Source: Akkermansiaceae bacterium
GTDB lineage: Bacteria > Verrucomicrobiota > Verrucomicrobiia > Verrucomicrobiales > Akkermansiaceae
Reading direction: 5' to 3'
Assembly (NCBI GenBank): GCA_013001695.1
Contig: JABDMC010000034.1
Span: 1-56,665 of the forward strand
DNA: 56,665 nt
Every line of letters starts with the position of its first letter. Positions within the stretch are counted from its first letter, which is position 1. A program made the position numbers and the translations under genes. Under the pieces are notes generated by a model. That model had not been told where the DNA came from. It was given only the letters and a program-made list of their open reading frames with translations, and searched no databases. Shown one piece after another: positions 10,480 through 40,470 of this stretch.

Positions 10480-10522
10480 CGCAAAGCGCACGATTTTCTC
10501 GTCAACGGCGTTGCATTTTGCA
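10480..10522. promoter_or_regulatory. Paired palindromic activator sites (entericidin/regulator spacer)
   Basis: CGCA-AAG-CGCA (10480-10490) and TGCA-TTT-TGCA (10512-10522, followed by ACCC) begin 32 bp apart. They lie between the divergent entericidin and activator genes, about 65 bp upstream of the activator promoter and 180 bp from the entericidin one. A further TGCA at 10453 may be a half-site. This 346-bp spacer otherwise holds GC-rich, non-coding sequence. Confidence 0.65.
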
Positions 10523-17588: not shown

Positions 17589-17620
17589 TGCATGATGCAG
17601 CCCGCAGCGTGCAACTTGCA
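17589..17620. promoter_or_regulatory. Paired palindromic activator sites upstream of DUF2188 gene
   Basis: TGCA-TGA-TGCA (17589-17599) and the perfect GTGCA-ACT-TGCAC (TGCA parts 17610-17620) begin 21 bp apart, two helical turns rather than three. They lie 66 bp upstream of the promoter at 17686. The 221-bp spacer has no other feature I recognise. Confidence 0.7.
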
Positions 17621-38149: not shown

Positions 38150-39334
38150 CTAGTTTCCCCCGTAGACGACCACCGGGCCCATCCCATGGCCCTGGACGCT
38201 GCGCAACTTCTGCACGGCCTTCACCACCTCCGCCGCGGCGGCATCGACCTCCGCCTCGGTCGTGAAGATCGACAGGGAAATCCGCAGGCTGCTCTTGGCC
38301 TTCTCGTCGGAGAATCCCATCGCCTTCTGCACGTGACTCGGCTGCTGCCTGCCGGTCATGCACGCGCTCCCCGCCGAACACTGGACACCCGCCTCGTCGA
38401 GGAGGATCAGGAGCCCCGCCGCTTCGCACCCCTCGAAGGACGCATGCACGATGTTGACGGCGCGGTGCCGGCGCGAACCGTTGAGCGTCATGCCCTCGAT
38501 CCCCGCCACGAGCCTCTCCTCGAAGCGGTCCCGGAGGCGCTTCACCTCGGCGTGACCGTCCTTCTCGAGACCGGCCTTCATGATTTCCGCGGCTTTCCCG
38601 AGTCCCACGATGGAGGCCACGTTCTCCGTCCCGCTGCGCCGCCCGCCCTCCTGGCCGCCGCCGCGAATCATCGGTTCGAAGCGCACCCCTTCCCGGATGT
38701 AGAGCGCCCCCACCCCCTTGGGGGCGTGAAACTTGTGGCCGCTGATCGAGAGGTAATCCACCGGGATCTCGCGCACGTCGACGGGCATCTTCCCCACCGC
38801 CTGGATGGCGTCGGTGTGGAATGCCCATCCCGCCTCCTTCGCGACGGCGCACGCTTCCGCGACCGGCTGGATCACCCCGGTCTCGTTGTTGGCCCACATC
38901 ACGGAGGCGAACCCCGGCTTCCCGCACGCCACCGCCTCGCGGTATTCGTCCATCTTCATCCGCCCCTCCCCGTCGGTCCCGCAGCGCACCACCTCGTATC
39001 CCACCGCTTCCATCGCTTCGCACGGCCGCAAAACCGCGCTGTGCTCGATGACGCTCGTCACCACCCGCGACTCTTTCCGCCCCACCAGGCGCGCCAGCCA
39101 CTTCAACGCCATGTTGTTGCTCTCCGTCCCGCATCCCGTGAAGACGATCTCCCCGGGGTCGGCATGGATCAACCCGGCGACCTGCTCGCGGGCCTCCTCG
39201 ATGGCGTTCTTCACCGCCTTCCCGGCCCGGTAGCCGCTCGACGGATTATGCCAGTGTTCCCTCAGGAACGGCAGCATCGCCTCCACGACTTCCGGATGCA
39301 CCCGCGAGGTCGCATTCGAATCCAAGTAAATCAC
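38150..39334 (-). CDS. Cysteine desulfurase, NifS/IscS-like
   Basis: PLP-dependent enzyme that removes sulfur from cysteine to supply Fe-S clusters or thiolated tRNA; 394 aa, the usual size. 'YLDSNATSRVHPEVVEAMLPFL' is the family N-terminus, 'TGCGTESNNMALKW' binds the PLP phosphate, the lysine is in 'SGHKFHAPKGVGALYI', and the persulfide cysteine is in 'CSAGSACMTG'. No iscU, sufU or trmU gene is adjacent, so its sulfur acceptor cannot be inferred. No sigma54-like promoter precedes it. Confidence 0.93.
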   Translation of the reverse strand: MIYLDSNATSRVHPEVVEAMLPFLREHWHNPSSGYRAGKAVKNAIEEAREQVAGLIHADPGEIVFTGCGTESNNMALKWLARLVGRKESRVVTSVIEHSAVLRPCEAMEAVGYEVVRCGTDGEGRMKMDEYREAVACGKPGFASVMWANNETGVIQPVAEACAVAKEAGWAFHTDAIQAVGKMPVDVREIPVDYLSISGHKFHAPKGVGALYIREGVRFEPMIRGGGQEGGRRSGTENVASIVGLGKAAEIMKAGLEKDGHAEVKRLRDRFEERLVAGIEGMTLNGSRRHRAVNIVHASFEGCEAAGLLILLDEAGVQCSAGSACMTGRQQPSHVQKAMGFSDEKAKSSLRISLSIFTTEAEVDAAAAEVVKAVQKLRSVQGHGMGPVVVYGGN

Positions 39335-39402
39335 CGCCGAACCCTACGGCGACCCTCTCTCCCCGGCAAGTGCCCCTCTCCGCCCGCTCATTCCCCCGGA
39401 CC

Positions 39403-39493
39403 CCTCCGAAGGCTCTTAACCACCTCCCCGGGCAAATCCCCCCCAGGTGCATTTCTGCAGCCCATTGGGGAGATGGTTAAGAGCTTTCGAAGG
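39403..39493. repeat. Long inverted repeat upstream of NYN and cysteine desulfurase genes
   Basis: Arms 39403-39429 and 39467-39493 pair over 27 positions (24 Watson-Crick, one G-T, two mismatches); the core is GCTCTTAACCACCTCCCC against GGGGAGATGGTTAAGAGC. The 37-base loop contains TGCATTTCTGCAG, similar to but one base longer than the activator palindromes. It lies between divergent genes, so it is not a terminator of either. Could be a small structured RNA or remnant of a mobile palindrome. Confidence 0.85.
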
Positions 39494-39648
39494 TAAATTT
39501 ATGTTAATGAAAATCCACACGATATCAACTCCTATTTTCCTTGAGCAGCGAAATTCCCTGCGGGGGTCATCCCCCGCCCCTAATTTCCGGGCGGGCATTG
39601 ACAATCGGGGCGGCGCGGATCACCAGTCAATCCCTCCCCACCAGCACG
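39494..39648. other. AT-rich leader of the NYN gene
   Basis: The first 50 bases (39494-39543) are strikingly AT-rich for this genome (TAAATTTATGTTAATGAAAA and similar). A promoter is plausible here but I cannot fix a -10/-35 pair. The gap to the cysteine desulfurase start (39335-39402) shows nothing else. Confidence 0.4.
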
Positions 39649-40470
39649 ATGCCCGATCCAGTTCCTGACGCCACCATGGCGGTTTTCCTCGATCTCGAGA
39701 ACATCGCGATCGGGGCCCGCGAAGCCAAGTATCCCCGCTTCGACATCCAGAAGGTGTTCGAGCGGCTCCTTCTCCGCGGCCACATCGTCCTCAAGAAGGC
39801 CTACTGCGACTTTTCCCGCTACGGCGAGTTCAAGCGCGATCTCCACGAGGCGTCCTTCGAGCTCATCGAGATCCCCCATGTCCGCCAGTCCGGGAAGAAC
39901 TCCGCGGACATCCGGATGGTGGTCGACGCCCTCGACCTCTGCTACACGAAGGGGCACGTCGAAACGTTCGTCATCATCTCGGGCGATTCCGATTTTTCCC
40001 CGCTTGTGTCCAAGCTTCGCGAGAATGCCAAGAACGTCATCGGCGTGGGCGTCAAGAATTCGTCCTCCGACCTCTTCATCAACAATTGCGACGACTTCAT
40101 CTACTACGACGACCTCGTCCGGAAGTCGCCCACCAAGAAGGCGGTGCGCAGCAACACCCGGGTCGCGAAGACCAAGGCGGCCAAGAAGAAGTCCGCCAAG
40201 AAGGCGGGCACGGACGACAGCTTGACCGCGGACGCCGCCATCGAGCAGGTCATGGACACCCTCGCGGGACTCGGCAGCGAACGCGGCGACGACCCGATCT
40301 GGGGGTCGATGATCAAGCAGGCCCTCAAACGCCGCAATCCCGGATTCAATGAGCGCGCCCACGGATTCCGCTCCTTCAACGAGCTATTGCTCGAGGCCGA
40401 GAAGCGGAACCTCCTCACCCTCGACGCCGACGAGAAATCCGGCGGCTACACCGTCCTGGCCGCCGACTAG
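39649..40470 (+). CDS. NYN-domain ribonuclease-like protein with C-terminal winged-helix/LOTUS-like domain
   Basis: 273 aa, cytosolic. NYN (PIN-like) nuclease domain 10-160: acidic residues 'AVFLDLENIA', 'KNSADIRMVVDALDLCY' and 'FVIISGDSDFSPLVSKLRENAKNVIGVG', the standard metal-binding set of the LabA/NYN family. A lysine-rich linker about 165-195 ('KKAVRSNTRVAKTKAAKKKSAKK') suggests nucleic-acid binding; the last 75 residues ('DPIWGSMIKQALKRRNPGFNERAHGFRSFNELLLEAEKRNLLTL') fit an OST-HTH/LOTUS domain. Probably RNA processing or decay. ATG 39649 precedes the domain; upstream in-frame sequence is poor. Confidence 0.85.
   Translation: MPDPVPDATMAVFLDLENIAIGAREAKYPRFDIQKVFERLLLRGHIVLKKAYCDFSRYGEFKRDLHEASFELIEIPHVRQSGKNSADIRMVVDALDLCYTKGHVETFVIISGDSDFSPLVSKLRENAKNVIGVGVKNSSSDLFINNCDDFIYYDDLVRKSPTKKAVRSNTRVAKTKAAKKKSAKKAGTDDSLTADAAIEQVMDTLAGLGSERGDDPIWGSMIKQALKRRNPGFNERAHGFRSFNELLLEAEKRNLLTLDADEKSGGYTVLAAD

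Follow-up and report, generated by a model that had tools for sequence, protein, structure and literature searches.

A lineage-specific, single-copy quasi-palindrome at a rearranged junction between divergent cysteine desulfurase and NYN genes in an Akkermansiaceae genome, and its possible role as a 5′-terminal stem-loop

In Escherichia coli, ompA and papA carry mRNA-stabilising 5′-terminal stem-loops. A 27-bp stem is long enough to be a substrate of RNase III. Stabilisation of bacterial mRNA by 5′ stem-loops is described in the consulted part of PMC7509114, and the RppH enzyme of Bacillus subtilis requires at least two unpaired 5′ nucleotides according to the part of PMC3997798 used here. Another kind of bacterial palindrome is the REP repeat: in the sections of PMC3733652 drawn on, GTAG and CGTC REPs have a stem of 5–13 bp, one end of which carries the GTAG or CGTC tag, and REP repeats are reported in Verrucomicrobia. 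The hairpin described below shares with the stabilising stem-loops of E. coli ompA and papA, Acinetobacter recA and Helicobacter vacA a predicted position at or near the 5′ terminus of a leader, where about one base would be unpaired. It differs from them in its 27-bp stem and its lack of conservation, and its transcript is only predicted.

The window (the whole stretch of DNA that was analysed) has 56,665 nucleotides. The features of the locus are the following; those without orientation are given as unstranded.

38150 to 39334, minus strand: cysteine desulfurase, NifS/IscS-like (best NCBIfam match NifS, below the cut-off of that model)
39364 to 39630, unstranded: spacer at the junction of a local rearrangement, without DNA homology in the relatives' regions between or around these two genes
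39403 to 39429, unstranded: left arm of the inverted repeat (inverted-repeat search and arm pairing)
39430 to 39466, unstranded: loop of 37 nt, in which GGGC/GCCC and TGCA/TGCA pair internally in predicted folds
39448 to 39459, unstranded: TGCATTTCTGCA, which forms a 4-bp inner stem within the loop; it resembles the TGCA-N3-TGCA sites of the window, but its own spacer has 4 bases
39451 to 39560, unstranded: AT-rich trough (minimum 30% GC in 60 bases)
39467 to 39493, unstranded: right arm of the inverted repeat (inverted-repeat search and arm pairing)
39501 to 39528, minus strand: sigma-70-like promoter, TTGATA-16-TAACAT, from a consensus scan; it faces the hairpin, then the desulfurase
39649 to 40470, plus strand: NYN-domain protein (Pfam NYN domain; start at 39649 or 39676)

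The two arms, each of 27 nt and separated by 37 nt, are 89% complementary and have the coordinates and lengths first proposed for them. On the plus strand, the stem comprises 24 Watson-Crick pairs, one G-T pair and two C-A mismatches, in agreement with the 24 of 27 plus one G-T of the original prediction. On the minus strand, it comprises 24 Watson-Crick pairs, two G-T pairs and one A-C. Pairing including G-T thus reaches 26 of 27 positions on the minus strand against 25 of 27 on the plus strand; such an asymmetry (two G-T against one) over three differences is uninformative alone. The arms differ by C/T transitions at all three positions, and these leave the stem nearly intact. The RNA fold of the hairpin has an energy of −52.0 kcal/mol on the plus strand (z −6.3) and of −60.1 kcal/mol on the minus strand (z −5.6); none of 200 shuffles was equally stable in either case. 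The hairpin ranks first among the 87 inverted repeats of the window (25 longest listed) and is the strongest short-range one. With 24 of 27 pairs and a loop of up to 100, it lies above the best value of all 20 simulated windows (range 19 to 22), which were generated from first-order Markov models of the window.

Comparable hairpins were counted by one rule, which asked for 19 or more pairs out of 22 and a loop of 3 to 60. The window and 40 stretches of its own genome, 443,476 bases together, contain five: the present one, two in stretch L179, one in L184 and one in L196. No such hairpin was found in 311,327 bases of the relative G010 or in 384,859 bases of the relative G003. By eye, the palindromes at L179 8691–8876 (GCCCGGGCCTTCAGGCCCGGG type), at L184 3139–3241 (GACCGTCCCGGTC type) and at L196 4007–4072 with its surroundings (TTCGAC...CTCAGG type) have the look of repeat families.

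The search for further copies suggested with the original prediction returned a single copy in its own genome (5.13 Mb, 399 contigs, 97% complete): the locus, its other strand and two partial matches of 21–28 nt (E 0.02–0.06). At a convincing score, DNA search found no hairpin in 57 relatives; 13 of these gave short weak matches (E 0.004 to 0.1). Fifteen weak matches (L003–L017, one of them from the own genome) were folded, and the palindrome formed in none of them. A covariance model (R1; Infernal, stricter filters) likewise found no homologue in the 57 relatives. Among 385 other genomes of the order, a set that partly overlaps with the 57 relatives, DNA search gave no accepted copy. Beyond the own locus, this search of 386 genomes (own genome included) returned two short weak matches, 0.2–0.3 being expected by chance (E about 5e-4 to 7e-4 per genome over 386 genomes). 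Both were rejected: L189 (31 bases, 91%, part of the loop) lies inside an open reading frame of 340 aa and occurs once in that genome, and L190 is limited to the flank. The exact 20-base arm pattern was not found in genome_contigs, a set that possibly does not include the own genome, and the plasmid and phage collections gave no match to the hairpin. A 16-base arm pattern occurs in 10 contigs of the viral collection; all 10 were folded and have no long palindrome at the match. Rfam gave no match in the window at gathering score; at a lax threshold, the sole matches were to models of miRNA precursors, with scores far under the respective cut-offs, and to one sRNA (E 1.7). A tRNA remnant was considered, the arms being slightly D-arm-like, and was rejected: ARAGORN found no tRNA in the window, and no tRNA model of Rfam matched at the lax threshold. 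In the literature covered (mostly papers outside subscription; searches on hairpin, divergent promoter and desulfurase, on Verrucomicrobia palindromes and on Roseibacillus desulfurase), no description of this locus was found.

The desulfurase and the NYN gene are separated by about 315 bp in this genome. Homology with the relatives ends near 39363 and restarts near 39631, leaving a non-homologous spacer of about 267 bp. The NYN gene, whose named protein relatives are from Roseibacillus-type and other Verrucomicrobia metagenome bins, is found in 13 of the 14 genus relatives (partial, at a contig end, in G007), and this desulfurase is found at high score in 12 of the 14. In 10 of the 14, both genes are on one contig; they are divergent likewise, but lie 5.8–15.3 kb apart with other genes between. 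The hairpin therefore sits at the junction of a rearrangement and, given the extent of the homology gap (about 39364–39630), both it and the AT-rich stretch lie inside the new spacer. The genes intervening in G003 include one for a sulfatase, which lies before NYN, and another, behind the desulfurase, that encodes a DUF7133/cytochrome c protein. DUF1592- and DUF1552-type genes lie between the desulfurase and NYN in G010 and G006, and beyond NYN in this genome. In most relatives, the desulfurase is preceded by a gene on the same strand; here it has no such neighbour. By eye, 10 of the 12 relatives compared are alike in the sequence immediately upstream of the desulfurase, and G002 and G010 deviate.

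A sharp change to AT-rich composition beside the repeat had also been noted; the 60-base GC minimum there is 0.30, the mean of the window being 0.676. The window has two troughs below 0.40 GC, of which this one is the deepest. The promoter-like site falls inside it. It is the only such site in 39200–39750 (551 bases), 0.2 being expected in shuffles; the same rule applied to both strands of the whole window gives four hits, two of them overlapping, that is, three distinct sites. The site matches the consensus at 9 of 12 positions only, and AT-rich sequence favours such matches. From the spacing to the −10 box, transcription would start at about 39494 (A), one base outside the hairpin. The predicted leader of 164 nt, from about 39494 into the first coding bases, is predicted to fold with the hairpin at its extreme end.

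The palindrome at the junction is unique, and the promoter-like site has its predicted start right beside it. For these reasons the following reading is favoured, tentatively and with less than even confidence: the hairpin would be a quasi-palindrome of recent, lineage-specific origin that arose together with the rearrangement; it would now make up the 5′-terminal stem-loop of the desulfurase transcript and would probably affect the stability or processing of this mRNA. The 5.8–15.3 kb between the two genes would have been rearranged away, giving the short spacer that holds the quasi-palindrome. The desulfurase would most likely be read from the minus-strand promoter at 39528–39501 in the AT-rich stretch. 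A transcript from about 39494 would then open with the 27-bp stem-loop, leaving about one base unpaired at the very 5′ end. The stem-loop would most likely either shield the 5′ end from pyrophosphohydrolase and 5′-end-dependent RNases or be cut by RNase III. Protection or cleavage would in turn set the lifetime of the mRNA. If this reading is true, a promoter and a 5′ stem-loop arose where a rearrangement parted the gene from its old neighbour. The structured RNA named in the original prediction is thus plausible in one respect, the sole promoter-like site of the region predicting a minus-strand start that abuts the hairpin; the compensatory changes proposed as a check had no homologues to be sought in, and cannot be counted because only one sequence exists. 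A more elaborate version, a newborn cis-regulatory leader RNA recognised by the NYN protein or by an iron-sulfur- or sulfur-responsive factor, which would make a two-gene circuit in this lineage only, is given very little weight.

The 27-bp stem could equally be neutral. That template switching or fold-back produced the quasi-palindrome as the rearrangement brought the two genes together, and that it has no function, is a serious contender, ranked close behind the 5′ stem-loop reading. The hairpin lies within non-homologous junction sequence, is single copy, is absent from all relatives searched and has no target-site duplication, all of which speaks for such a scar. In yeast, template switching is known to make inverted-repeat arms alike (PMC3820800 and PMC8604942, in the parts consulted). 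Like template-switch quasi-palindromes, the hairpin has near-perfect inverted arms and a unique sequence and lies at a rearranged junction; the ancestral, unswitched sequence is missing here, so that the switching event is putative. On the other side, a predicted promoter start placed exactly at the hairpin edge would have to be a coincidence, and the arms differ by C/T transitions only, which largely spare the stem, though three differences are few. The hairpin is conserved in no searched genome, and therefore nothing shows selection on it. A unique accident of one strain had been named as the outcome that would speak against the original prediction; as regards conservation, this largely describes what was found, no homologue having been recovered from the searched genomes. 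The locus has little general meaning; it also illustrates that even a striking palindrome can occur just once.

An orphan mobile palindromic element of MITE or REP/BIME type, also proposed originally (as a remnant), is unlikely. Its size of about 91 bp, its long inverted arms and its intergenic position are those of such an element, and the other strong hairpins of the same genome (L179, L184, L196) look repeat-family-like by eye. Against this, there is one copy in a 97% complete genome, and none in the 57 relatives, in 385 genomes of the order (accepted copies), in genome_contigs (arm), or in plasmids and phages. There is also no target-site duplication: the 20-nt flanks on each side have a longest common stretch of 3 nt, out of register. 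The stem is far above the 5–13 bp given for GTAG/CGTC REPs in the part of PMC3733652 used, and is not a short, tagged REP stem. The hairpin is an intergenic palindrome as are the REP/BIME of the GTAG and CGTC super-families; unlike these, it is single copy with a 27-bp stem, and its ends, which read GGACC|CCTCC and CGAAGG|TAAATT, are without GTAG or CGTC. Assignment to the REP/BIME class was rejected accordingly (not many copies; 27-nt arms; GTAG/CGTC tag missing). With bacterial MITEs (NEMIS/Correia, RPE, RU-type), it shares a length under 200 bp, inverted arms and a possible action as RNA; it differs from them in having no copies and no target-site duplication, in not being AT-rich itself and in having TA at one end only. 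Assignment to the MITE class, as defined in the part of PMC2229807 consulted, was rejected for the missing target-site duplication and further copies.

That the arms are a pair of inverted operators, accompanied by a TGCA-type site in the loop, through which a transcription factor controls the divergent promoters, is improbable. The original prediction had drawn attention to a loop element resembling activator palindromes but with a four-base spacer. This element does exist: TGCATTTCTGCA is the only TGCA-N4-TGCA of the window, which has seven TGCA-N3-TGCA sites. The loop (GGTGCA-TTTC-TGCAGCC) resembles these seven, for example GGTGCATGATGCAGCC at 17589, and the hairpin lies between divergent genes and adjoins the AT-rich stretch. 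However, the spacer is 4 instead of 3, the inner stem already explains the TGCA pair, the arms do not recur in the genome, and the only other strong loop match (L189) falls inside an open reading frame and is no more than chance would give over 386 genomes. The loop element, with its four-base spacer, may be unrelated to the N3 sites. The latter look like a real local operator family. They are found at 10512, 15234, 17589, 17610, 26673, 30358 and 51658 of the window, and their flanks tend to G[GT]TGCANNNTGCA[AC]C. With spacers of 2 to 6 pooled, there are nine matches against 1.58 expected, and none of 100 shuffles reaches nine. The own genome has four occurrences of the strict form GKTGCANNNTGCAMC, of which two fall inside this window (control 0).

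An intrinsic terminator was rejected: the genes are divergent, the desulfurase on the minus strand and NYN on the plus strand, and no terminator-like site was found at 39403–39493; the view that the repeat is the terminator of neither gene is upheld. That the hairpin is a substrate of the adjacent NYN nuclease, as had been suggested from adjacency to a gene that does carry a Pfam NYN domain, is scarcely credible, the gene being present in 13 of the 14 genus relatives and the hairpin in none of the 57, the hairpin upstream of NYN in G010 being different and also single copy, so that there is no common sequence, and the predicted transcript through the hairpin belonging to the desulfurase.

This G010 hairpin (L070 974–1037; 21 of 22 bp) is of unrelated sequence, lies 80–143 bp upstream of NYN and directly after an open reading frame, and is outside the 311,327-base sample. 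A repeat-type hairpin lies upstream of NYN in L092. Among the best 80 of 306 NYN loci and 13 genus regions (605 kb), five hairpins reach 20 or more pairs out of 22, and two of these lie shortly upstream of NYN; a common hairpin upstream of NYN was rejected, these instances being too few to argue from. Upstream of the desulfurase, G010 (L034, about 1311) and G002 (L037, about 1292) have a common GC-rich element without an Rfam match at gathering score. Its stem is AACAGGAT/ATCCTGTT or AACTGGAT/ATCCGGTT around GGGGGGGAAA; one stem pair is altered on both sides.
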